From a virus, in IMG/VR virus record IMGVR_UViG_3300032665_000229, positions 1-21,195 of that record: a stretch of DNA of 21,195 nucleotides. One strand, written 5' to 3'. A program made the translations under genes and the position numbers. The notes under the pieces were generated by a model, which had not been told where the DNA came from, made no database searches, and worked only from the letters and a program-made list of their open reading frames with translations. This document shows, in pieces, positions 5,261 to 20,405 of the stretch (positions are counted from its first letter, which is position 1; each line of letters opens with the position of its first letter).

Positions 5261-5437
5261 TTAGTCGATGTCAGGATGGAAGTGATTGCCCTCATAGTCG
5301 AAAAGGTATTCAGAATGGACGCGAAACAGGATTTGGTTGGCCTCATCGAGGAACAGCAGCATGACGGGCTGGTCGCGGTCGCGGACGATTTTGTAGATGC
5401 GACGACCGAAGAGGGATACGATGTGAGTGCGTTCCAT
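5261..5437 (-). CDS. small hypothetical protein, first gene of the leftward unit
   Basis: A 58-residue protein beginning M-E-R-T-H-I-V-S-L-F-G-R-R-I-Y-K-I-V. It has alternating hydrophobic strands (V-M-L-L-F-L-D-E-A-N-Q-I-L-F-R-V) and an aromatic, His-rich end (Y-L-F-D-Y-E-G-N-H-F-H-P-D-I-D). GGAG lies 9 bases before the ATG at 5437; the longer frame to 5530 runs through the promoter. It is the first gene after the strong leftward promoter and is followed by an attenuator-like hairpin, so it may be the most abundant early leftward product. No domain is recognised. Confidence 0.6.
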   Translation of the reverse strand: MERTHIVSLFGRRIYKIVRDRDQPVMLLFLDEANQILFRVHSEYLFDYEGNHFHPDID

Positions 5438-5457
5438 TAGCTTTCTCCAAATAGGCT

Positions 5458-5469
5458 GGCCTGATTGCC
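5458..5469 (-). repeat. repeated 12-base leader element, copy 2
   Basis: This is identical to 4234-4245 (GGCCTGATTGCC). It lies 15 bases downstream of the -10 box of the leftward promoter at 5485-5514 and upstream of the SD of the gene at 5437. Its repeated position in two leaders argues for a regulatory role. Confidence 0.6.
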
Positions 5470-5484
5470 ATCGCCCATGAACAG

Positions 5485-5514
5485 AGATTAAGCGATATGA
5501 AATGAGGGTGTCAA
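5485..5514 (-). promoter_or_regulatory. leftward sigma70-type promoter
   Basis: Read leftward, a perfect -35 TTGACA (5514-5509) and a -10 TAATCT (5490-5485) are separated by 18 bases; TTAATC at 17 bases is an alternative. It drives the gene at 5437 and those beyond. It faces away from the rightward promoter at 5549, so the 5438-5607 gap is a divergent control region. Confidence 0.7.
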
Positions 5515-5548
5515 CAGAATGTTTTCTCATTTTGAAGATTATTTTTGA

Positions 5549-5576
5549 TTGACGCGATGTGTGAGCATGTTAGTAT
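5549..5576 (+). promoter_or_regulatory. rightward extended -10 promoter
   Basis: -35 TTGACG (5549-5554) and -10 TAGTAT (5571-5576) are separated by 16 bases, with an upstream TG forming an extended -10 (TGTTAGTAT). Transcription should start near 5583 and reach the ATG at 5608 after a short leader with GGAG. It is divergent from 5485-5514. Confidence 0.65.
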
Positions 5577-5607
5577 TGGGTGTCGATTTTGACATGGAGA
5601 TAGACAC

Positions 5608-6222
5608 ATGGCCCGCACCGCTTCCGACTACATCGCCCGCGCTCTCGAAATGTTTGAGGCTGGGTTCACGACCAAGTCCGCGCAGAAGGATGCGCTCGAT
5701 AACGTCAGCCGCGCCTTCGACCGCGTGAAGGAGGATGTCCAAAATGCTCTCTGTGAGCGGTATTTCTGGGTGATGGAGTACAAGGATGTCCCCCTGGAGG
5801 TTCGTCTCCTGAGCGACGATTTGTGCTGCATGTATCCCCATCAGTTCCGCGACCGGCATGCCGATGCGCTCGTCGCTCTCGGCTTCGATGCCAAGCCGTT
5901 TGTCGAACTGGCTGATTTTCGGAACACCATTAAGTCGGCTGAAATCATCAAGGTCGCGGTCAAGGAACCCTGCGCCAAGACCATCGAGATTCAGAAGTTT
6001 ATTGGCGATGAGTTGGCCCGCCTCAAGAAATGCTACGTCGAGGGCCTGGACCTGAGCGAGCGCCTAGGTCATCTGCCGGTGACGGCGAACAGCCACTGGG
6101 TCGTCAACCAGTATGGTCACGGCTTCCCCCGCACGTTCTACTTCCTGAACGGCAAGTTGACCCGGCTGAGCATCATCATCTGCATCGCGGAAGAACTTGA
6201 GCGCCGGAAGGAGGTGGCATAA
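5608..6222 (+). CDS. hypothetical protein, first gene of the rightward late block
   Basis: A 204-residue soluble protein. GGAG lies 8 bases before the ATG. The first 70 residues look helical (Y-I-A-R-A-L-E-M-F-E-A-G, D-A-L-D-N-V-S-R-A-F-D-R-V-K-E-D-V-Q-N-A-L). Residues about 110-150 form another long helix (K-F-I-G-D-E-L-A-R-L-K-K-C-Y-V-E-G-L-D-L-S-E-R-L). A final segment has aromatic strands (H-W-V-V-N-Q-Y-G-H-G-F-P-R-T-F-Y-F-L-N-G-K-L). Five cysteines are scattered without a metal-site pattern. No known domain is seen. As the first gene after its own promoter it could be regulatory, but this is inference from position only. Confidence 0.65.
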   Translation: MARTASDYIARALEMFEAGFTTKSAQKDALDNVSRAFDRVKEDVQNALCERYFWVMEYKDVPLEVRLLSDDLCCMYPHQFRDRHADALVALGFDAKPFVELADFRNTIKSAEIIKVAVKEPCAKTIEIQKFIGDELARLKKCYVEGLDLSERLGHLPVTANSHWVVNQYGHGFPRTFYFLNGKLTRLSIIICIAEELERRKEVA

Positions 6223-7737: not shown

Positions 7738-7892
7738 TAAAGCCTCCTGACGTCGAACGATACGTGCCTGTCCGCTGCGGCTGCTGCGAGGCTTGCTGGT
7801 ACGACAGGAAGCTGGGGCGGTGTTTGTACCTCGGCCCATACAACGGCTACCGCATCCTCGCTGACGGCTCGCTGGAGCGTGTCAGGCCGTGA
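7734..7892 (+). CDS. small Cys-rich protein
   Basis: A 52-residue protein starting on an ATGA overlap and ending on a GTGA overlap with the large terminase. Cysteines cluster as C-G-C-C-E-A-C-W (about residues 15-22), with another at G-R-C-L-Y-L-G-P-Y. It could bind a metal or form disulfides in a compact fold. A Gly/Tyr-rich strand follows (Y-N-G-Y-R-I-L-A-D-G-S-L-E-R-V). The position between the terminase subunits is the only functional hint; a packaging accessory role is a guess. Confidence 0.5.
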   Translation: MIKPPDVERYVPVRCGCCEACWYDRKLGRCLYLGPYNGYRILADGSLERVRP

Positions 7893-9526
7893 CCCTCATC
7901 AGCATCCAGGGAATGCAGATAGACGCGGAGGCCGTCCTCGACAGGCTCGAACGCGAGATGTGCGAGGAATCGCTGGAAGACTTTGTGAAGGCGGCGTGGC
8001 ACGTCATCGAACCCGGCCAGCCTCTGGTCTGGGGCGAGGTCATGTCGTTCATCTGCGTTCACCTCGAACAGATAGTCTACTCGGTCGTCTACGGCGATAC
8101 GCTGCCCGATGGGGAACTGTATAACCGGCTGCTCATCAACGTGCCTCCTGGGCTGTCCAAGAGCCTGCTGACGAGCGTGTTCATGCCCGCGTGGGCCTGG
8201 ACCTTCGCGCCGCATCTCCGCTTTCTCTGCGCTTCCCACAGCCAAGCCCTCGCCATCCGCGATAACCTCCGCATGCGCCGTCTGGTGACCTCGGAGTGGT
8301 ATCAGAAGCACTGGGGCGACAAGGTGCGGCTGACCCAGGACCAAGCAGCCAAACTGAAATTCGAAAACAATCACACTGGATTCAGAGAGGCGAGCGCGGC
8401 GGGGTCCATCACCGGCTCTCGGGCCGACATCCTGATACTGGACGACCCGCACAGCGTCGAGAGCGCAGGCTCTGAGCAACAGAGGGCGACGACACGGGAT
8501 TGGTTCCTGGAGGCGGTCCCCACCCGTTTGAACAATCCCGCGACCTCAGCCATCATTGTCATCATGCAAAGACTGCATGAGGAGGACGTGTCCGGAATCA
8601 TCCTCGACAAACAACTCGGCTACGACCACATCATGCTGCCGATGGAGTATGACCCGGCCCGATCGATGCCCACGCGTCTCGGCTGGCAAGATTGGCGGAC
8701 AGAAGAGGGTGAGTTGCTCTTTCCAGAGCGTTTTCCAGCAGAGGTGGTGGCAAGGGACAAGGCCGTTATGGGGCCATACGCGGTTGCCGGTCAGTTCCAG
8801 CAGACGCCGACGCCTCGAGGCGGGGGAATCATTCAGAGGGACTGGTGGCAGCTATGGGAAGGGCAAGGCGTCTTCCCCGGCTGCGACTACATTCTCGCCA
8901 GCCTTGACTGCGCCTACACGGAAAAAAGCGAAAACGACTACAGTGCTTGTACCGTGTGGGGTGTCTTCACGGACGACGGCAGGGCTGTGGCAGCAAACAT
9001 CATCAGCCCGGATGGTCGATACGTCCAAAATGGTCGAACCTACGTCGAGGGTGCGCCGAAGCTAATCCTGATGTACGCGTGGCAGGAGCGGCTCGAACTC
9101 CACGCTCTAGTGCAGAAGGTCGCGGCGACGTGCAAAAAGTACAAGGTCGATACCCTGCTGGTCGAGGCTAAGGCGTCAGGTCACTCCCTCGCTCAGGAGA
9201 TAAAGCGTCTCTTCGGGCACGAGGACTTCGCTGTCAGGCTCTATAACCCGAAGGCGCAGGACAAGGTCTCTAGGCTCTACTCCATCCAACACATCTTCGC
9301 CGAGGGCATGGTCTACGCGCCCGACATGACGTGGGCCGAGATGGTCATGACACAGTGTGCACAATTCCCGAAAGGCAAGCACGATGACCTTGTTGACTCG
9401 CTATCGCAGGGGGTGAGATACTTGCGCGAGATGGGGCTGCTGGTCCGCGCCCCTGAGAGATTGAGCGAGATTGAAGAGGGCCGACGCTACAAGGGAGCGC
9501 CACCGGCTCCTCTGTACCCAGTCTAA
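7889..9526 (+). CDS. terL: terminase large subunit (packaging ATPase and nuclease)
   Basis: A 545-residue motor protein that pumps phage DNA into the prohead and cuts it. The N-terminal ATPase has a variant Walker A, N-V-P-P-G-L-S-K-S (residues 84-92), Walker B L-I-L-D-D (182-186), and the coupling segment I-V-I-M-Q-R-L-H-E-E-D (222-233). The C-terminal RNase H-like nuclease has its three acidic clusters: S-L-D-C-A-Y (Asp340), L-V-E-A-K-A-S-G (Glu426) and K-H-D-D-L-V-D-S (Asp499/500/503). Both halves are complete and the length is typical. It starts with GTG on a 4-base overlap with the upstream gene. With the small subunit at 6735 and the portal at 10391 it makes the full packaging machine. 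The mechanism (headful or cohesive ends) cannot be told from this window. Confidence 0.95.
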   Translation: MTLISIQGMQIDAEAVLDRLEREMCEESLEDFVKAAWHVIEPGQPLVWGEVMSFICVHLEQIVYSVVYGDTLPDGELYNRLLINVPPGLSKSLLTSVFMPAWAWTFAPHLRFLCASHSQALAIRDNLRMRRLVTSEWYQKHWGDKVRLTQDQAAKLKFENNHTGFREASAAGSITGSRADILILDDPHSVESAGSEQQRATTRDWFLEAVPTRLNNPATSAIIVIMQRLHEEDVSGIILDKQLGYDHIMLPMEYDPARSMPTRLGWQDWRTEEGELLFPERFPAEVVARDKAVMGPYAVAGQFQQTPTPRGGGIIQRDWWQLWEGQGVFPGCDYILASLDCAYTEKSENDYSACTVWGVFTDDGRAVAANIISPDGRYVQNGRTYVEGAPKLILMYAWQERLELHALVQKVAATCKKYKVDTLLVEAKASGHSLAQEIKRLFGHEDFAVRLYNPKAQDKVSRLYSIQHIFAEGMVYAPDMTWAEMVMTQCAQFPKGKHDDLVDSLSQGVRYLREMGLLVRAPERLSEIEEGRRYKGAPPAPLYPV

Positions 9527-10390: not shown

Positions 10391-12694
10391 ATGTCTATCT
10401 CGCCAAGTCTTTCCGGCAGAATGCAGTCTGGTCTTGGGGCAATTGGCCCTGACGACATCAAGGTCGTCATAGGCGAGAACCCTGACGCGCCGGAGGTTGA
10501 CGACAAGGGCAACATCATCAAGATTGTTCATGGTGATGGCTCGGTCACCGTCTCGCTCGATGGCAAGGGGCTGGGCAACGTCAACGGCGAGAAGGACAAG
10601 GGCTGGTGGGACAATCTCGCCGAAGAGATTGACCAGATGGAACTGTCCCGCATCTCCAACGACCTCTTGAGAAATATCGAATACGACATCGACAGCCGGA
10701 AAGAGTGGATTGAAGACCGCGCTCTGGGGCTGAAGCTACTGGGGCTGAAGATTGAACTTCCCGGTGTCGGCGGCGCTGCGGACGGCGCTCCCATCGAGGG
10801 TATGAGCAAGGTTCGCCACCCGCTGCTGTTGGAAGCCGTGTTGCGCTTCCAGGCCAATGCCAGGAGCGAACTGCTCCCCACCGATGGCCCGGTCAAGATT
10901 CGCGTGGACACGAACAATGGCAACGTCCAGCAGGACCAACTCGCCAATGCGCTGGAGAACGACCTCAACCACTACCTGACCTCGACGGCGACAGAGTATT
11001 ACCCCGACACTGACCGCATGCTGCTGATGCTTGGGTTCAGTGGCACCGCGTTCAAGAAGGTGTACTTCTGCCCGCTGCGAAATCGCCCCGTCTCCGAGAC
11101 AGTGGACGCCTCTGACCTCATCGTGAACGAGACGGCGACGGACCTCCGCAACGCCAAGCGCATCACCCACCGGACGACGATGCGGAAGTCCGATGTGGTC
11201 CGCATGCAGATACTGGGGGTGTACCGAGATGTTCCGCTCTCGACGCCGGTCATGCCGGAACTCGACGCCCTGCAACGGGAGAAGTTGAACCAGCAGGGTC
11301 TGAATCCCTCGGCGATGAACCCTGACGACCGAGACCGGGAGATATACGAGTGCTACTGTGAACTCGACATCAAGGGTTTCGAGCATAAGCACAAAGGCTC
11401 GCCCAGTGGGCTTGAGATACCCTACCGCGTGACGATTGATGTCTCGACCAAGCAAATCCTGTCCATCGTGCGGAACTACGACGAGGACACAGCGAACATG
11501 CCGGAGGCTCGCCCGGTCTTCGTCAAATACACGTTCGTTCCCGGCTTCGGCTTCCTCGACATCGGCTTGCTGCACATCCTCGGCAACACCACGAACGCCA
11601 TCACGGCAGCATGGCGCGAGATGCTTGATGCGGGGATGTTCGCATCGTTCCCCGGCTTCCTGTTCGCTAAGTCTGGCGCGAGACAGCAGACCAACGTATT
11701 CCGCGTTCCTCCCGGGGGCGGTGCGCCGGTCGAGACGGGTGGGTTGCCTATCACGCAAGCCATCATGCCGCTGCCGTACAAAGACATCTCCCCGGCCTTC
11801 GGAGCGTTCGTGGAGAACATCGCCCAGACGGGCATGAGGATTGGCGGGACATCGGAGCAGCAGGTCGGAGAAGGCCGTGCAGACGCGCCTGTGGGCACGA
11901 CGCTGGCGATGATAGAGCAGGCCACCAAGGTGCTTAATGCCGTCCACAAGCGCATGCATGCGGCTCAGGCGGAAGAGTTCCAGTTGCTGGTGAAGTGCTT
12001 TAAGGAGAACCCGGAATCCTTCTGGCAGTCCAATCGGAAACCCGCCTACCAGTGGGACGAGCAGACGTTCCTGCAGGCACTGGACGACGTTGACCTCGTC
12101 CCGCAGGCAGACCCCAACACCGCTTCACATGCCCAACGTGTCATGAAGATTATGGCGCTGAAGCAACTGCAGGCGCAGAACCCGACAATGTACGACCCCA
12201 TCGCCATCGACACCGCCGCGCTCCAGGCTATTGGCTGGTCGAACCCCGAACAGTTCCTCGCTCCTCCCGCTGCACAGTCTGCACCGCCGCCGGAGATGCA
12301 GAAACAGATGGCGGAAGCCAAGGTCAACCAGCAGGAGGCCGACGCCAAGACCATGCTGGCTCAAGCCAAGGCCGCTGAGATGCAAGCTAAAGTGGTGGCA
12401 TTAAAAGCCGAGATGGGCAAAGGCCCGGAGAATCACCCATCTCAGGTTGACACGCCCGTAGACATCCTTACGGCTAAGGCAAAGATGATGGATGCTGAAA
12501 CCCGACGCCAGCAGGTCAACACCTCAACCGGCAAGGTGGCGTTGGAGGATAAGGCGCGAGAGCAGGACCGGGAGAGCCGCGAAAAAATCCAACTACTCGA
12601 AATGGCTCGTGATATAGTGATGCATCCGGCGAGTGCGCCGATGGCAGAACCCCTGATTAAGCAGGCGGAGTCTGGAGATAAGGGAAATGATTGA
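10391..12694 (+). CDS. portal protein
   Basis: A 767-residue portal that forms the dodecameric DNA channel at one head vertex, binds the large terminase and nucleates prohead assembly. Recognisable parts include the membrane-like segment K-V-R-H-P-L-L-L-E-A-V-L-R-F-Q-A-N-A-R-S-E-L-L-P (about residues 138-161), F-S-G-T-A-F-K-K-V-Y-F-C-P (216-228), the clip/stem region around L-L-H-I-L-G-N-T-T-N-A-I-T-A-A-W-R, and P-V-G-T-T-L-A-M-I-E-Q. The last 150 residues are Ala/Gln/Lys-rich helix (E-A-K-V-N-Q-Q-E-A-D-A-K-T-M-L-A-Q-A-K-A-A-E), like the barrel of P22-type portals. The length is close to P22 gp1. GAGG lies 7 bases before the ATG. The N-terminal 80 residues are more variable. Confidence 0.9.
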   Translation: MSISPSLSGRMQSGLGAIGPDDIKVVIGENPDAPEVDDKGNIIKIVHGDGSVTVSLDGKGLGNVNGEKDKGWWDNLAEEIDQMELSRISNDLLRNIEYDIDSRKEWIEDRALGLKLLGLKIELPGVGGAADGAPIEGMSKVRHPLLLEAVLRFQANARSELLPTDGPVKIRVDTNNGNVQQDQLANALENDLNHYLTSTATEYYPDTDRMLLMLGFSGTAFKKVYFCPLRNRPVSETVDASDLIVNETATDLRNAKRITHRTTMRKSDVVRMQILGVYRDVPLSTPVMPELDALQREKLNQQGLNPSAMNPDDRDREIYECYCELDIKGFEHKHKGSPSGLEIPYRVTIDVSTKQILSIVRNYDEDTANMPEARPVFVKYTFVPGFGFLDIGLLHILGNTTNAITAAWREMLDAGMFASFPGFLFAKSGARQQTNVFRVPPGGGAPVETGGLPITQAIMPLPYKDISPAFGAFVENIAQTGMRIGGTSEQQVGEGRADAPVGTTLAMIEQATKVLNAVHKRMHAAQAEEFQLLVKCFKENPESFWQSNRKPAYQWDEQTFLQALDDVDLVPQADPNTASHAQRVMKIMALKQLQAQNPTMYDPIAIDTAALQAIGWSNPEQFLAPPAAQSAPPPEMQKQMAEAKVNQQEADAKTMLAQAKAAEMQAKVVALKAEMGKGPENHPSQVDTPVDILTAKAKMMDAETRRQQVNTSTGKVALEDKAREQDRESREKIQLLEMARDIVMHPASAPMAEPLIKQAESGDKGND

Positions 12695-12914
12695 GCCTGT
12701 CATCTATCGGAATGAATCCGCGCCTCCCACGAAGCCGGGATGGTATTACGCTCAAGCCAAGGGCAACACTCGTAAGCCTGCTGGCACCTCGATAATCCCC
12801 CGTTTGGTCGAACGGTCTTATATCGACGGCGACAAACTTATCATGGGCAGTTCCACACTAAGCATCGACCATTACCGTTGGTTTGGCCCGGTGACCCCGG
12901 TGAAGGAAGGCTGA
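12687..12914 (+). CDS. small hypothetical protein after the portal
   Basis: A 75-residue protein overlapping the portal stop by 8 bases, with GGAG and AAGGG upstream of the ATG. It looks like a compact beta fold with aromatic residues: P-T-K-P-G-W-Y-Y-A-Q-A-K-G near the start, and H-Y-R-W-F-G-P-V-T-P-V near the end. The P-G-x-Y-Y-A and W-F-G-P pair is a pattern found in small phage proteins of unknown function. It ends one base before the ATG of the large 12916 gene and is presumably made with it. Confidence 0.65.
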   Translation: MIEPVIYRNESAPPTKPGWYYAQAKGNTRKPAGTSIIPRLVERSYIDGDKLIMGSSTLSIDHYRWFGPVTPVKEG

Positions 12915-12915
12915 C

Positions 12916-15858
12916 ATGGGTGGCGGGACACTTGACCCGAATAACAAATACGGTCTCACGCAAGCCGGACTGGACAGGATTACAAACTTCGGTTTGTACG
13001 GGCAAGCCACGCCGCCATCCTACTCATCTCAGAACGTCTCCTCGCCGTACATAGGAGCCAACACTGGCTATCCGGTCAATGGCTTCCAGCAGCCCGCATC
13101 GTCTCCCGCATCATCTCCTGGCACGTTCCAAGTAGCCTCTCCCTTCGGCATGACCGGAGGGAAAGGTCCACAGACACAAGCCGGTGGCTATCAGTCCAAT
13201 CCTGTTGGTCGTGGCAAGGGATTCCAGTCCGGTGGCGCTGTAAAGGGCATCAACCCCGAGCGCATCTTAGAGGTCGCCAGTCGCGTCGTTAAAGCCGGTG
13301 GTGGTTTCATCCCCCACGGCGACCCACAGCGTGACGAGAACCTCACCGCATTCCTTGACCCATCACAGATTCACGGCATTCACGTCACAACCCGTCGCCC
13401 CGGTTTTCGAGAAGGCGGCGCACCGGACGATGAAGGCTTCGATGCCTATCACGGCACCCCGCACACGTTTCCTGCCGAGCGTCTGGTGCAGCATCCTGAT
13501 GGCACACAGGAACATATTGTAGGCGGTCCTGACCAACTTCCAGACGTTCCCGAAGGCGCTGCGGTGCTGAAAGATTATCCGCTGGGCCGGTTTCGTGATG
13601 AAGCCATTGGAACAGGTGAAGGCGCTCAAGCATATGGTTACGGTCATTACTCAGCAGGCCATGAAGGAACCGCCAAAGCATATCGTAATGCTTTAAGCGG
13701 AGAACCTGTTACTTCGGAGGGATATAGCCCATTTTACGAAAGTCCCCTTAAAAACAACAGAGTCGCTCAAGGTCTTGCAAAAATGTCTTTGCAACAAGCA
13801 CTAGACAAAAAATTGTCTGGCGATGCTGCTATTGAAGACGCCGTTCATGACTTAAACAGAAATGCTGCTTTTTCTGAAAGAAAAGATATAAAACAAAGAT
13901 ATTATGACGCAGCAAATAATCTTTGGAGCCTTCGCGGCAAAAATTGGTCTATTAATCCCGGTCACATGTTTCATCTCCGCGTTAACGCGAACCCCAATCA
14001 TTTTCTTGATTGGGATAAACCACTAATTCGTCAGCACGAAACTATAAGACGGTTAGCCGGGTTTACGCCAGAATTTGAAGCCGCCCATTGGAACGCTGAA
14101 AGAGCGGACAATGATAATCTTTATGATGCTTTGGCGAATGGTGCCGAATACAAAGAAACAAGAATGCCTGAACTTCCGCGCAGTGCAATGTCACCAAACG
14201 CAACAGGTGAATCCCTTTATCTACGTCTTCAAGAACGCATGGGTTCTCTTGATTGGAATGTCGGCGCCGATTTAGACGCGCGAAACCGTCAACGCAAATT
14301 AGCATCAGAACGTGCCAGTGAACATTTGCTGAGACATGGCATCCCCGGCATTCGCTATCTTGACCAAAATAGTCGTGATGAGGGCGAAGGCACCCACAAC
14401 TATGTAGTCTTCGACCCCAATAAGATTGACATCAAACGCCGTTACGCCCGTGGCGGCACAGTTCCCCAAGGTGGCAACATGGACATCGTAAACAAGGCAC
14501 TGCAGTTGGCTCGAATGCACGGTGCGACGCCTAACCCGCATGCCGCTGCGATGAACGTGCTGCACCGCAGTGCCGGTGGCGAAGACGATGCGGAGCCGAT
14601 GCCTACTCAACAAGAAATGTATAACAAGCCATCTCTGTTGCCGCCGGAAACGTGGGAGAAGCATCAACTTGCCACGCAGTCATTGGCTGACGCATTTAAC
14701 AAAGCAATCTCACATCATCTGTCGTTGACTGGCGCGGACAGAATCCGAAACAGCAAGCAGATGGGGGACCGCGTTGCCGCATTTTTAGGGCATACCAAAG
14801 AAGGGGCCATCAAGCCGCTGCTCACCCAAAACGCCAAATTAATAAAAGCAAATGCCGGATATGAAGCTGGCCCCGGTTACGCCGCACAAGCGCCAATCAT
14901 GCTTCCAGAAGGTGTGGGTGTGGAAACGACTGGGTTGGCTCTTCGTCCTGCTGCACGAAAGGGAAAGTTCAAAGTTTGCCCAAATTCCGCTATCTGCGAG
15001 AAACCATGCCTTGGAGAGACATCGGGCAATTACGGAGCGGCATACGAGCCTAATTGGCCCAAAATTAATGGACAAAACAGGACAAATGCATTTTTAAGTG
15101 ACCCCGAAGCATTTGCTGTTCGTCTTCATGACGAAATTAATCGTGCAAAAAGCCAAGCGGAAATGAATGGCAACAAGTTGGCTGTTCGATTAAATGTTCT
15201 TTCGGATATTCATCCCAAAATTCATGAGGCAATTATAAAAGCGCACCCAGACGTGGATTTCTACGACTATACTAAAATGGATTATGACCCCATCGCTCCC
15301 AATCATCATTATACCTACTCGTCTACAGGATTGACGCAACCGGAAGGCATGAATGGCATTGAGCAAGGAAGCGGCAAGGGTGTCTCAAATCCTCATCAAA
15401 ATTGGGGAAGGATGAGGTCTAGGCTTGACCAAGGCAGCAACGTGGCAATGGTTTTTAACCACAGAGCCAATATTCCCCTTCCCAAATGGGTTCATGACCA
15501 AGAAACAGGGAAAAGGTATCGCGTTGTTGATGGCACTACGCATGATTATAGGCCGTTGGACGCACAGCCCAAAGGTTCTGACGGCGTAATCATCGGCCTG
15601 AGCAACCTCAATGGCTCAGGCAGTTCTAAAGATGCCCATATTGATTCCGGCGGGTTCATGGTAAAATACGACCCTCAACTTCGACGCAATGTCGGGAAGA
15701 ACGGACAACCGATTGCCGGATTTCAAAGAGGTCCAAGTTTAGGTTTTGACAAAAAAGGCAAGCCGGTAAAAGGTGAATATGTTGCGGATAACGATACTGT
15801 TCATGTCGCCCCGCAAGGCAAGGCAAGACCGGGACAATTTGTAGACAGGATGTACTGA
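12916..15858 (+). CDS. multidomain protein: polyvalent-type ADP-ribosyltransferase-like domain plus gp88-like cysteine domain
   Basis: A 980-residue protein. Residues 1-170 are low-complexity, rich in Gly, Ser, Pro and Gln. Residues about 175-510 match ART domains of phage polyvalent proteins: Y-H-G-T-P-H (178-183, putative NAD-binding His179), I-G-T-G-E-G-A-Q-A-Y-G-Y-G-H-Y (231-245, second-position Tyr245), N-H-F-L-D-W-D-K-P-L, H-G-I-P-G-I-R-Y-L-D and N-Y-V-V-F-D-P-N-K-I-D-I. The glutamate of the H-Y-E triad was not placed. Residues about 660-925 resemble the phage gp88 family: C-P-N-S-A-I-C-E-K-P-C (Cys688, 694, 698), R-L-N-V-L-S-D-I (758-765), F-Y-D-Y-T-K (782-787). Two GG-x-V helices (106-130 and 513-536) flank the ART part. 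AAGGA lies upstream. From its place in the head operon I infer a virion protein ejected into the host to modify host targets. No activity is shown. Confidence 0.7.
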   Translation: MGGGTLDPNNKYGLTQAGLDRITNFGLYGQATPPSYSSQNVSSPYIGANTGYPVNGFQQPASSPASSPGTFQVASPFGMTGGKGPQTQAGGYQSNPVGRGKGFQSGGAVKGINPERILEVASRVVKAGGGFIPHGDPQRDENLTAFLDPSQIHGIHVTTRRPGFREGGAPDDEGFDAYHGTPHTFPAERLVQHPDGTQEHIVGGPDQLPDVPEGAAVLKDYPLGRFRDEAIGTGEGAQAYGYGHYSAGHEGTAKAYRNALSGEPVTSEGYSPFYESPLKNNRVAQGLAKMSLQQALDKKLSGDAAIEDAVHDLNRNAAFSERKDIKQRYYDAANNLWSLRGKNWSINPGHMFHLRVNANPNHFLDWDKPLIRQHETIRRLAGFTPEFEAAHWNAERADNDNLYDALANGAEYKETRMPELPRSAMSPNATGESLYLRLQERMGSLDWNVGADLDARNRQRKLASERASEHLLRHGIPGIRYLDQNSRDEGEGTHNYVVFDPNKIDIKRRYARGGTVPQGGNMDIVNKALQLARMHGATPNPHAAAMNVLHRSAGGEDDAEPMPTQQEMYNKPSLLPPETWEKHQLATQSLADAFNKAISHHLSLTGADRIRNSKQMGDRVAAFLGHTKEGAIKPLLTQNAKLIKANAGYEAGPGYAAQAPIMLPEGVGVETTGLALRPAARKGKFKVCPNSAICEKPCLGETSGNYGAAYEPNWPKINGQNRTNAFLSDPEAFAVRLHDEINRAKSQAEMNGNKLAVRLNVLSDIHPKIHEAIIKAHPDVDFYDYTKMDYDPIAPNHHYTYSSTGLTQPEGMNGIEQGSGKGVSNPHQNWGRMRSRLDQGSNVAMVFNHRANIPLPKWVHDQETGKRYRVVDGTTHDYRPLDAQPKGSDGVIIGLSNLNGSGSSKDAHIDSGGFMVKYDPQLRRNVGKNGQPIAGFQRGPSLGFDKKGKPVKGEYVADNDTVHVAPQGKARPGQFVDRMY

Positions 15859-15859
15859 C

Positions 15860-16057
15860 ATGACGGATAGACAGAAAATGCCTGAGCGGTTTGCTCAACA
15901 GCAGTTTCACAACTCTCATATGTTTGATGACAGCGAATACTCGCCGCCCGAATGGTATGAGATGCCGAATGCAGCCGAGCATTTCGCAAGTGGCGGCGAA
16001 GTGGTACAAAAGGCTTTATCCGTTGCCCGTCACCTTGCCTCCAAAGGAGCCAAATGA
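15860..16057 (+). CDS. small protein with a GG-x-V helix motif
   Basis: A 65-residue protein starting one base after the previous stop, with AGGA 9 bases upstream. The N-terminal half is Gln/Met/Pro-rich and aromatic ([11 protein letters not shown]). The C-terminal half is [19 protein letters not shown] (residues 42-60), a Gly-Gly turn and an amphipathic helix. This matches residues 106-130 and 513-536 of the 980-residue protein upstream. It consists of little more than this motif, which suggests the motif itself is a functional unit such as a virion-targeting or assembly tag. Confidence 0.6.
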
Positions 16058-17449: not shown

Positions 17450-17842
17450 ATGTCCAATGTGAAAATGCTGCACGATATTGACCCGAAAGAGAAGCTAAAG
17501 GCACAGATTGGTGACTTGACCAGCCTTGAAGTGTTCAACAATCAGGTCGTTATTGCGATTTACACCCGTCCTGAGCGCACCAAGGGCGGCATTTTTTTGA
17601 CCCCTAACGCTCAAAGCGAAGACAAGATTCAGTCCAAGGTCGGCCTAGTCGTAAAGATGGGGCCAGAAGCCTTTATGGACGAACGCGGGAAATGGTTTGC
17701 CGATGTTGAAATCAATGTCGGCGACTGGGTTGTGTTCCGTCCATCGGAAGGTTGGAACATCACTATCAATGACGTCGCTTGCCGCATGCTTGACGACGTA
17801 AATATTCGCTGCCGGGTCCAGAACCCCGACATGATTTGGTAG
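17450..17842 (+). CDS. GroES-like (Cpn10-fold) phage protein
   Basis: A 130-residue protein with the layout of a GroES co-chaperonin. A first strand (N-N-Q-V-V-I-A-I-Y-T, 30-39) precedes a mobile-loop-like segment E-R-T-K-G-G-I-F-L-T (42-51), which parallels the GroEL-binding G-G-I-V-L-T of bacterial GroES. Then come K-V-G-L-V-V-K-M-G-P (63-72, like the E-V-x-A-V-G-x-G strand), I-N-V-G-D-W-V-V-F (88-96, like V-K-V-G-D-x-V-x-F) and D-D-V-N-I-R-C (115-121, like the terminal D-I-L-A strand). It may redirect host GroEL to fold the capsid protein, as T4 gp31 does. Alternatively the fold has been reused as a structural protein. AGGGG lies 5 bases before the ATG. Confidence 0.7.
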   Translation: MSNVKMLHDIDPKEKLKAQIGDLTSLEVFNNQVVIAIYTRPERTKGGIFLTPNAQSEDKIQSKVGLVVKMGPEAFMDERGKWFADVEINVGDWVVFRPSEGWNITINDVACRMLDDVNIRCRVQNPDMIW

Positions 17843-17853
17843 GAGAGACCCTG

Positions 17854-18750
17854 ATGGCTGCTCGAAAGACCCCCAAACCGGACGAAATCGAAGTGAAACT
17901 GGAAGGCCAGGAGGAGCCTCCTGTTGTTGTGGTGGAGGATACTCCTAAGCAACAGGTCATGGAGCCTGAAGAAGGTCTTGAAGCCCTAAAAGCACAGCTA
18001 GAAGCGGAGCGAAATGCCCGCCGAGAAGCTGAACAGCGCGCCCAGATGGCCGCTCAGGACGCTTATAAGGCCAAAGAACGCGCCCAGGACACCGATTTAT
18101 CTCTGGTGAGCAACGCTATTTCGACTGTGAAGTCGAATATGCAGACGCTTCGCCAGAATTACATCCTGGCAGTGCAGAATGGCGATGCGGAAGCGCAGGC
18201 TGACATCCAATTGGCGATGGCTGACGCTTCCAGCAAGTTGATGGAACTGGAAAAGGGCAAGGAGGCGCTAGAACGCGCTCCCAAGCCGCAGATGCAGCAG
18301 TATCAGGCTCCAGACCCGGTCGAAACCATTGCAAACCAGATTTCCCAGCAGGGTTATTCCCGGTCTGCGGAATGGATTCGCAAGCATCCTGAGTTTGTGA
18401 CCAATCCCAAACTGTATAAACGCATGTTGGCGGCGCATGAACTTGCCATCAGCGAGGATATCACGCCCGATACCGACGAATATTTTGACGCAATCGAGGG
18501 AACTCTCCGTTTGGCGAGAGTTTCAGTAACCCCCACCGAAAGCCCAACGGCTCAGGCGGCTCAGGTCACCCAGCGTCGGTCATCCCCACCCGCCGCTCCG
18601 GTTACTCGGGCAGGCAATGGCACTGGTCAGCGTCAGACGACCTATACATTGTCTCAGGAAGAAGCGGATATGGCGGAACTGATGGGCATGACCCATGAAG
18701 AATACGCCGCAAACAAAATTGCCCTGCGCCGCGAAGGCCGGATGCACTAG
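17854..18750 (+). CDS. scaffolding protein
   Basis: A 298-residue protein just upstream of the capsid genes. It looks typical for a prohead scaffold: acidic, disordered N-terminus (P-K-P-D-E-I-E-V-K-L-E-G-Q-E-E-P-P-V), long coiled coil (about residues 40-150: L-E-A-L-K-A-Q-L-E-A-E-R-N-A-R-R-E-A-E and on), a globular middle (Q-Q-G-Y-S-R-S-A-E-W-I-R-K-H-P-E-F), a Gln/Ser/Pro linker and a short helical basic C-terminus (M-T-H-E-E-Y-A-A-N-K-I-A-L-R-R-E-G-R-M-H) that could bind the coat protein. GGAG lies 8 bases before the ATG; the extra six codons upstream are rejected. The family call rests on layout, as scaffolds have little sequence conservation. Confidence 0.75.
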   Translation: MAARKTPKPDEIEVKLEGQEEPPVVVVEDTPKQQVMEPEEGLEALKAQLEAERNARREAEQRAQMAAQDAYKAKERAQDTDLSLVSNAISTVKSNMQTLRQNYILAVQNGDAEAQADIQLAMADASSKLMELEKGKEALERAPKPQMQQYQAPDPVETIANQISQQGYSRSAEWIRKHPEFVTNPKLYKRMLAAHELAISEDITPDTDEYFDAIEGTLRLARVSVTPTESPTAQAAQVTQRRSSPPAAPVTRAGNGTGQRQTTYTLSQEEADMAELMGMTHEEYAANKIALRREGRMH

Positions 18751-18760
18751 GAGATAAGAG

Positions 18761-19318
18761 ATGGAAGAGATTAAACGCAGCTACAATCGCAAGCCGGTCC
18801 CGATCGGCGATATGCCTGTCAGCAGCGATGACGATATGCGCCCAGCCATGAGGGAAGAAAGCCCCCTAGACCGCGCTCGTCGTCGTGCGGCTGAACTTCG
18901 CAAGCATGGGGCCGTCGATGAGGACTTCACGGATGAGTTCTACGTTAACCCGTCTGACATCCCGGATGGTTGGTCTTATGAGTGGAAGCGCCGGACTGTT
19001 CTGGGCCAGGAAGACCCCGGATACAACGTCGCCATCGCTCGCGCCGGTTGGGAACCCGTCCCCGCCTCCCGTCATCCGGCCTATATGCCTGCCGGTTCGT
19101 CTGGTGCCGTGATTGAGCGCAAGGGCATGGTCCTGATGGAGCGCCCCAAGGAAATCACCGACGACGCTCGCAATCGCGACCTTCGCCGAGCCAAAGGTCA
19201 GGTTCAGCAGAAGGAAGCGCAGTTGAACGAGTCCGGTCCCGGTCAGTTTGGCAAAGATGACCCCCGCGTCAAAGCAAAGATTGGAAAATCCTACGAGGCT
19301 ATTCCTATCTCCGAGTAA
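18761..19318 (+). CDS. virion-associated structural protein (putative)
   Basis: A 185-residue basic protein with GGAG upstream of the ATG. It has a charged, disordered N-terminus (residues 1-55, with R-A-R-R-R-A-A-E-L), then a compact segment F-Y-V-N-P-S-D-I-P-D-G-W-S-Y-E-W-K-R-R-T (about residues 60-79) and R-A-G-W-E-P-V-P-A-S-R-H-P (about residues 94-106), and a helical C-terminus rich in Arg and Gln. The I-P-D-G-W-x-Y-x-W-K-R and G-W-x-P-V-P-A-x-R-H-P pattern recurs in phage proteins placed between scaffold and coat genes, usually listed as structural or hypothetical. The role (head completion or scaffold partner) is open. The terminator at 19367-19399 ends this unit. Confidence 0.65.
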   Translation: MEEIKRSYNRKPVPIGDMPVSSDDDMRPAMREESPLDRARRRAAELRKHGAVDEDFTDEFYVNPSDIPDGWSYEWKRRTVLGQEDPGYNVAIARAGWEPVPASRHPAYMPAGSSGAVIERKGMVLMERPKEITDDARNRDLRRAKGQVQQKEAQLNESGPGQFGKDDPRVKAKIGKSYEAIPISE

Positions 19319-19523: not shown

Positions 19524-20405
19524 ATGGCGAATACATCTGCGCCTTTCGGTTTTTGGCAGTACACGGGGACCGGCTCGTCGCCGACCTATGAACAGACTGT
19601 CGCGTCTATCGCTTCGTCCAACTCGTCTCCCATTTACTACGGTGACCCTGTCGTTCAGGCGACTGGTACGACCGGCCTTGGCACTGGTTACATCCAGCAG
19701 GCTGCGGCTCCCGTAACCTATTCCATCACTGGCGGTACGCTGACCAACGGCATCATGGCGCTGGCGGGCACGTTCACGACTGCCATCCCGGTTGGTTCGA
19801 CCATCGTCGCTTACGGCTTCACCTCGACGGCAGCGACTGTCAACGGTGCATGGACGGTCTCGGCCTCCACGACCTCGGCTGTGTCGTTCCCGTTCTCTGG
19901 TGCGTTCACCACTGGTACTGGCTCGATTGCAGTGTTCACTCCGGTGGCTGGCATCTTCATCGGTTGCCGATATCTTTCGATTTCGCAGAAAAAGCCGGTG
20001 TGGGGCAACTACTGGCCGGGTGCAGACGCCAACGGCGACGTTCAGGCGTACATTGTCACTGACCCGAACGCTCAGTTCGTCGTGCAGACGGCAAACTCGA
20101 ACACGACCGCCACCCCGGTTGGTCTGTCGAACATCGGCCAGAACATCAGCTTCAACCTCGGCACTGGCACGGCAGCAAACGGCCTGTCCGGCGCTTATGC
20201 TGACCAGTACACGCTGACCGCCAACTACCCTTCGGGTAACTACGGAAACGCGTTCCTGCCGTTCCGCATCCTGGCGCTGGCAAACTACACGCCGGGTCAG
20301 GTTAGCCCCCTCGTTTCCATCAACGGTAACGACCCCACCACAGCCTACAATCGCATCGTCGTCGGGTTCAATAACTCGATGCCGCGTTCGTTTGCTGGCA
20401 TTTAA
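19524..20405 (+). CDS. capsid-associated virion structural protein
   Basis: A 293-residue protein that begins M-A-N-T-S-A-P-F-G-F and has P-I-Y-Y-G-D-P-V (36-43), G-I-F-I-G-C-R-Y (143-150), N-Y-W-P-G-A-D (162-168) and A-Y-I-V-T-D-P-N-A-Q-F (175-185). These match a common phage structural family found next to the major capsid gene, often described as decoration or capsid proteins. Residues about 61-140 are a Thr/Ser/Gly/Val-rich beta insert that I do not recall from the shorter members; it may be an outward Ig-like or decoration domain. AGGAG lies 8 bases before the ATG. It is the first gene of the capsid transcript and probably abundant. It could itself be a coat or stabilising protein. Confidence 0.75.
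   Translation: MANTSAPFGFWQYTGTGSSPTYEQTVASIASSNSSPIYYGDPVVQATGTTGLGTGYIQQAAAPVTYSITGGTLTNGIMALAGTFTTAIPVGSTIVAYGFTSTAATVNGAWTVSASTTSAVSFPFSGAFTTGTGSIAVFTPVAGIFIGCRYLSISQKKPVWGNYWPGADANGDVQAYIVTDPNAQFVVQTANSNTTATPVGLSNIGQNISFNLGTGTAANGLSGAYADQYTLTANYPSGNYGNAFLPFRILALANYTPGQVSPLVSINGNDPTTAYNRIVVGFNNSMPRSFAGI

Follow-up and report, generated by a model that had tools for sequence, protein, structure and literature searches.

The ADP-ribosyltransferase (ART) domains of phage polyvalent proteins are defined by a histidine in strand 1, a tyrosine in strand 2 and an aspartate in strand 5, the H-Y-D pattern, and are assigned to the Tox-ART-HYD2 clade as ART-PolyVal (Iyer et al. 2017, PMC5512222). 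The Alt protein of phage T4, a head-packaged ART acting early, belongs to the R-S-E clade (PMC5512222). Phage P1 encodes the large antirestriction protein DarB beside the portal, and DarB is carried in the head, to which it is targeted by a short peptide (PMC9024508). Members of the GP88 family (PF17338, PHROG 1617) are usually short standalone proteins. Here, we describe a protein, P0001, in which an ART domain is fused to a GP88 domain. Its gene lies in the 21,195-base linear virus record IMGVR_UViG_3300032665_000229 of IMG/VR, the whole of which we refer to as the window. The window phage is water-borne and podovirus-like.

The fusion is recurrent and not accidental. It is a recurrent member of the polyvalent proteins, with a domain (GP88) that is not recorded for them. 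The fusion is not unique at the sequence level, and what the literature lacks is a functional description of it. We suggest, with a probability of about 0.7, that P0001 is a packaged and ejected polyvalent effector combining an early ART with GP88 as a second effector.

P0001 resembles ART-PolyVal proteins in the H-Y-D pattern, the multi-domain setting, the portal and late-gene context, and in having relatives above the PF18760 cut-off. It differs by an extra beta-rich insert of ~40 residues after strand 1 and by the fusion to GP88, which PMC5512222 does not mention. With T4 Alt, P0001 would share early action of an ART packaged in the head, as predicted here. The R-S-E active site of the T4 Alt and VIP2 ARTs is however absent from the window ART, which carries H-Y-D instead. 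The logic we propose is similar to that of P1 DarB, with different domains and with packaging as a prediction for the window protein. The GP88 part shares a full-domain match over the cut-off and three invariant cysteines with its family, yet sits in a multi-domain late protein.

Layout of the fusion protein

The original prediction, made from the letters of the window, had proposed a single 980-residue protein carrying both domains right after the portal. P0001 is indeed one intact open reading frame (ORF) of 980 amino acids exactly at 12916-15858 (+), with an ATG start and a ribosome-binding-like GAAGG upstream. The portal gene (10391..12694) occupies the region directly upstream, and the slot after the portal is found in relatives too. 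Every motif named in the prediction was located in P0001, and all are above chance. YHGTPH begins at residue 178 (thus His179), GTGEGAQAYGYGHY ends at Tyr245, NYVVFDPNKIDI begins at residue 495, RLNVLSDI lies at residue 758 and FYDYTK at 782-787. The proposed domain ranges (residues 170-520 and 640-930) were close to the measured 174-515 and 624-899, the latter by hidden Markov model. The features of the protein are:

12916..15858, +, fusion protein P0001, 980 amino acids
12916..13395, +, low-complexity N-terminal region, residues 1-160, with a GG-helix-like stretch (FQSGGAVKGINPERILEVASRVVKAGG), as read from the sequence
13435..14460, +, ART domain, residues ~174-515, Tox-ART-HYD2 / ART-PolyVal type
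13450..13452, +, codon of His179, catalytic-site histidine of strand 1
13648..13650, +, codon of Tyr245, strand 2
14362..14364, +, codon of Asp483 in a late strand (IRYLD), candidate third active-site residue
14443..14535, +, inter-domain linker with a YARGGTV motif followed by an NKALQLAR helix
14785..15612, +, GP88 (PF17338) domain, residues ~624-899
14977..15009, +, Cys688, Cys694 and Cys698 (C-x5-C-x3-C)
15860..16057, +, 65-amino-acid ORF matching the C-terminal tail (QQFHN...), with a GG-helix motif

The short ORF at 15860-16057 corresponds to a tail that the relatives L002 and L006 carry within the fusion protein itself. We read its separation in the window as a likely gene split or translational re-start.

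The ART domain

The ART identity is borne out by relatives passing PF18760, by conserved motif residues and by a predicted fold matching ARTs. The relatives L015, L019 and L020, found directly by tblastn with P0001 at ~32-33% identity, pass the curated cut-off of PF18760. Membership of the window ART in this family is thus transitive, since its own segment remains unmatched. Searching the P0001 sequence directly against Pfam, NCBIfam and the PDB returned no ART match and no PDB match, and a profile of the ART domain found only low-complexity or helical chance matches in the PDB. Among 48 aligned relatives, the ART motifs are invariant or nearly so. The two residues previously singled out are conserved, with a histidine at position 179 in 46/48 and Tyr245 in all 48. 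Asp483, likewise present in 48/48, would be the strand-5 aspartate of the H-Y-D triad (PMC5512222).

In the fused relative L005 (5902-11136), glutamine takes the place of the ART histidine (AYQGSPN). A further small ART-like ORF (5283-5957) is located immediately upstream. L005 might possibly encode an inactive ART copy plus a second ART.

Structures were compared using AF2 models, plain Foldseek and then the second-look aligner VIA. The ART model reached a predicted local distance difference test (pLDDT) score of 83 and a predicted template modelling (pTM) score of 0.78. Plain Foldseek of this model against the PDB returned nothing below E 0.001. The best VIA match is chain 9k3a_B of the Cyanophage A4 pre-ejectosome (Z 9.6, 162 residues, 4.9 Å). 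Tankyrase, PARP2, PARP4 and the toxin MbcT come next at Z 6.4-7.7, and unrelated helical proteins score ~5 or lower. The fold check proposed earlier for residues 170-520 therefore recovered an ART fold.

The matched region of the A4 large protein (PDB 9K3A chain B, residues 1418-1606) lies within a podovirus ejection body. At the corresponding residues, the large protein of Anabaena phage A-4L, judging from its name the same phage as Cyanophage A4 or a close relative, reads LYHGT...GEWGSGTYFS...TLVINPDAVSVIN, including the YHGT and TYFS motifs. The structural match and these motifs indicate that an ART-type domain has already been seen inside a podovirus ejection body. The ART profile gives no detectable sequence match in the A-4L large protein. 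The A4 protein further differs from P0001, as no GP88 domain was seen in it and its gene lies with those of ejection proteins rather than after the portal.

The GP88 domain

The assignment of the second block to GP88 holds, with PF17338 matched at E 7.7e-18 (65.6 bits against a cut-off of 24.4) over residues 635-865. All 31 aligned GP88 members match PF17338. Cys688, Cys694 and Cys698 are invariant in 31/31 relatives, and so are R758, D764, Y783, Y785, T786, K787, N796 and S802. The spacing of the first two cysteines varies and is longer in many relatives, and the second spacing is constant at x3.

The GP88 model has a pLDDT of 73 and a pTM of 0.75, with the cysteine loop below 50. Plain Foldseek against the PDB gave nothing below E 0.001, and a profile built from the aligned GP88 members matched nothing in the PDB at E values up to 10. 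The top nine VIA chains are nonetheless all radical S-adenosylmethionine (SAM) enzymes (QueE, viperin-like, TigE, SuiB and NifB), at a Z of just 4.4-5.4. Radical SAM and iron-sulfur (Fe-S) oxidoreductases also stand near the top of the named non-GP88 viral matches (E 0.05-0.2), alongside unrelated lipases. The GP88 model weakly resembles the fold of radical SAM enzymes such as QueE, viperin-like proteins and NifB, with a cysteine loop after the first strand and alternating alpha/beta elements. It differs by having Cx5Cx3C rather than Cx3Cx2C, by a Z of ~5 and by the missing PF04055 match. Because of these differences, we treat a radical-SAM-like nature of the modeled domain as a lead and not as membership. 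Homology of GP88 to DUF5131 (Gp37/Gp68), a candidate prompted by similar SD and TK signatures, was unsupported by hhalign.

GP88 might alternatively be no enzyme at all but a zinc-type module that binds DNA or protein and so directs the ART to its target. This would concern the GP88 half only and is compatible with a packaged effector. Three invariant cysteines with a variable first spacing could bind zinc together with a fourth ligand, and the radical SAM fold matches are weak. However, the invariant R, D, Y, Y, T, K, N and S on predicted strand ends resemble an active site, and GP88 stands alone in many phages and bacteria, hence has no need of an ART. We consider a purely binding role possible but rather doubtful.

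GP88 is found in more than 30 environmental phage lineages and several isolates, in contigs of bacteria and, as a UniProt entry, in an archaeal spindle-shaped virus. Bacterial and archaeal contigs with GP88 (L165-L191) include Planctomycetes, Rhizobiales, Lachnospiraceae and Woesearchaeota. GP88 is encoded as a standalone gene close to a genome end in HTVC024P and in Mesorhizobium phage Lo5R7ANS; in Sansa, the standalone gene sits amid replication genes. Such placements agree with an early function and suggest that a phage can supply the same function through an early gene.

Recurrence of the fusion in a conserved cassette slot

We scanned IMG/VR using P0001 as well as ART and GP88 profiles. 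The relatives share a conserved operon of terminase, portal, slot, Gly-Gly-rich protein (g16054), GroES and further head genes. Between portal and g16054, dozens of contigs retain the slot, which holds GP88 and/or ARTs, fused or in neighboring genes. We counted 37 distinct GP88 proteins in this family. An ART is part of the same protein in 11 of them and is encoded by the adjacent gene in nine. The other 17 have neither, and some of these lie on incomplete contigs. Both curated Pfam cut-offs (ART-PolyVal and GP88) are passed within a single ORF in L006 and L051. The original prediction presented such a fusion as one not known to have been described. This stands for the polyvalent-protein papers searched, as 'gp88' does not occur in PMC5512222 on polyvalent proteins or in the NAD-ADPr survey PMC9503650. 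The fusion is not unique though, recurring in at least 10 other distinct contigs, and it is probably also present in unannotated UniProt entries of uncultured phages.

On the GP88 tree, the window protein groups with three other fused proteins in a well-supported clade, and at least two changes are needed to explain the fused state. The ART of L006 is missed by the window-type ART profile yet passes PF18760, which suggests that the ART half was probably exchanged within the GP88 clade of the window.

The slot content fits the description of polyvalent proteins. P0001 combines two distinct domains (ART and GP88) in one polypeptide in a portal and late-gene context, and the slot of relatives carries InPase, M15, GNAT, PBECR5 and LPD23. 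ART-PolyVal occurs in 24/45 slot ORFs, with PBECR5 and LPD23, both of the polyvalent type, also present. The slot of MW202675 (L203 7316-14813) encodes a GNAT-M15-ART protein and an InPase protein, annotated as 'peptidase M15' and 'type I restriction enzyme', respectively. In the jumbo phage Tunturi_5 of Tunturiibacter (L025 1149-7028), an InPase+GP88 gene directly precedes a NUDIX/ART/GNAT gene. The former is annotated as 'minor head protein' and the latter, of 1,490 amino acids, only as 'MutT/NUDIX hydrolase'. In two unrelated phage groups, the slot family and Tunturi_5, GP88 thus acts like a domain of polyvalent proteins, and it looks like one not recorded for them so far. Searching 12 GP88-carrying genomes for ART-PolyVal identified it in one only, hence the ART-GP88 pairing is a trait of phage cassettes and not a general one. 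Sulfitobacter phage PhiGT1, whose virions were analyzed by mass spectrometry in the paper on this phage (PMC10386132), encodes an ART (gp5) shortly after the portal.

The slot also bears on a structural explanation, in which P0001 would be a component of the virion or of an internal ejection channel and both domains inactive relics serving as scaffolds. The gene sits in the head module, its product shares GG-rich linkers with g16054 and predicted ejection proteins, His179 is replaced by glutamine in two relatives and an ART fold is found inside the A4 pre-ejectosome. Yet 46-48 of 48 relatives retain the catalytic-site residues, and the three cysteines persist in 31/31. What the slot holds differs freely between relatives, be it an ART alone, just GP88 or other domains, and in HTVC023P it holds small ORFs only, which is ill-suited to an essential structural part. 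We regard a scaffold role as quite unlikely.

A Gly-Gly motif shared with predicted ejection proteins

We counted 126 copies of the motif [YF][AKE]xGG across 84 slot ORFs, against a shuffle mean of 9.5, and 61 copies across 35 Gly-Gly-rich protein homologs, against a shuffle mean of 2.8. The motif is not above chance in terminase, portal, GroES and downstream head genes. Counts per protein covered three long relatives, MW202675, HTVC023P and the window. All proteins with at least two copies there fall into three kinds: slot proteins, the Gly-Gly-rich protein and three large proteins. These large proteins match PHROGs for 'DNA ejection protein', endolysin/SLT, virion structural and 'released from the phage upon host infection', and tail-fibre families as well. 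Slot, g16054 and predicted ejection or virion proteins hold 34 copies in 13,277 amino acids, compared to seven in 61,893 amino acids elsewhere, which is chance level (shuffle mean 5.6). The tail that adds another copy in relatives is the separate 65-residue ORF (15860-16057) in the window. The distribution makes it possible that [YF][AKE]xGG is a loading tag, for which the 30-residue packaging peptide of P1 DarB provides a precedent (PMC9024508). A GG-plus-helix motif (GG..ALxxAR) was dropped as a specific tag, being enriched in slot proteins but in the remaining ORFs as well.

Delivery could be absent altogether if P0001 acted in superinfection exclusion or host takeover as an enzyme made in the infected cell and never packaged, with the late operon as a moron-type insertion site. 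The slot mosaic is consistent with this, and so are the standalone GP88 genes near the HTVC024P genome end and among the replication genes of Sansa. Against it, every contig that shows the context has the same placement between portal and late genes. The polyvalent-type co-domains and the peptidoglycan peptidase M15 are sensible for injected proteins, and the motif is shared with predicted ejection proteins. An unpackaged enzyme hence appears improbable to us.

Proposed mechanism

We suggest that the fusion gene encodes a cassette-type polyvalent effector made late alongside the head proteins. P0001 would be loaded into the capsid or an internal ejection body and ejected with the DNA. Early in infection, the ART domain would then attach ADP-ribose from NAD+ to a host macromolecule through the His179-Tyr245-Asp483 site. 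This mode would resemble that of T4 Alt, although the ART here is of the polyvalent Tox-ART-HYD2 clade. GP88 would act as a second early effector, probably with a barrel-like fold and a three-cysteine metal or Fe-S site, possibly as a radical-SAM-like enzyme. The aromatic-A-x-Gly-Gly motif of the linker may serve in loading. Directly observed here are the two domains, their conserved residues, the repeated fusion or adjacency, the operon slot, the match to an ART fold and the enriched motif. Packaging, ejection, both enzyme activities, their targets and any cooperation between the domains are inferred. The virion-delivered host modifier of the original prediction is plausible.

Several points weigh against a packaged effector of this kind. 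The phage and its fusion protein are known from sequence data. PF18760 gave no match in a direct Pfam scan of the ART segment of the window, and the change of His179 to glutamine in 2/48 relatives means that some ART copies may be inactive. The fold matches of GP88 are weak (Z ~5, Foldseek E ~0.1), the canonical radical SAM Cx3Cx2C is not present in GP88 (C-x5-C-x3-C instead), PF04055 is not matched in the window up to E 10, and the hhalign comparison with DUF5131 is not significant (probability <1%, shallow alignments). Standalone GP88 genes of other phages sit outside the head module. P0001 holds a single [YF][AKE]xGG copy, located between its domains and not significant alone, and the ejection proteins joined the motif class after their motifs were seen.

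A more specific proposal would see GP88 as a new class of virion-delivered Fe-S radical-SAM-like enzyme working with the ART in one injected protein. The shared tag [YF]-A-x-G-G-x-V would then be a repeated ejection-loading motif for this and other ejected proteins. We consider this combination speculative and unlikely.

Late operon and genome relatives

The late gene order of the window is terminase large subunit, portal, fusion gene, Gly-Gly-rich protein, GroES homolog and more head-module genes. The operon is tight, as a 75-amino-acid ORF overlaps the portal stop and ends one base ahead of the fusion gene. The neighboring features are:

7889..9526, +, terminase large subunit
10391..12694, +, portal protein, phrog_1216 at 1.6e-28
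12687..12914, +, ORF of 75 amino acids
16054..17241, +, Gly-Gly-rich conserved late protein g16054 with [YF][AKE]xGG motifs, right border of the cassette slot
17450..17842, +, co-chaperonin GroES homolog
17836..18750, +, conserved late gene, likely in scaffold position
18761..19318, +, conserved late gene with no function assigned
19524..20405, +, homolog of HTVC023P gp39, which directly precedes the capsid gene in HTVC023P

The gene at 19524-20405 was considered as major capsid protein and rejected, as the comparison with HTVC023P identified it as the gene preceding the capsid gene. The GroES gene (17450-17842) is kept in nearly all relatives showing context. The Gly-Gly-rich protein g16054 had no PHROG match, and its homolog in MW202675 no Pfam match. 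It carries two short Cys/His clusters, possibly metal-binding. On the minus strand, a low-complexity ORF (2019-2771) contains a long Ala-Tyr-Ala-Asp/Asn repeat. The closest named genome is MW202675, of 61 kb and from spring water, with a portal 64.5% identical. Weaker portal relatives are phages infecting Pelagibacter, Roseobacter and Caulobacter.

Significance

GP88 is a widespread viral family without an assigned function. Its swapping with ARTs in an effector cassette and its fusion to InPase in an unrelated jumbo phage provide a testable role as an early-acting host-directed enzyme, expressed by some phages and perhaps injected by others. If the Gly-Gly motif is a loading tag, injected proteins could be predicted from their sequences across a large uncultured group of freshwater and marine phages.

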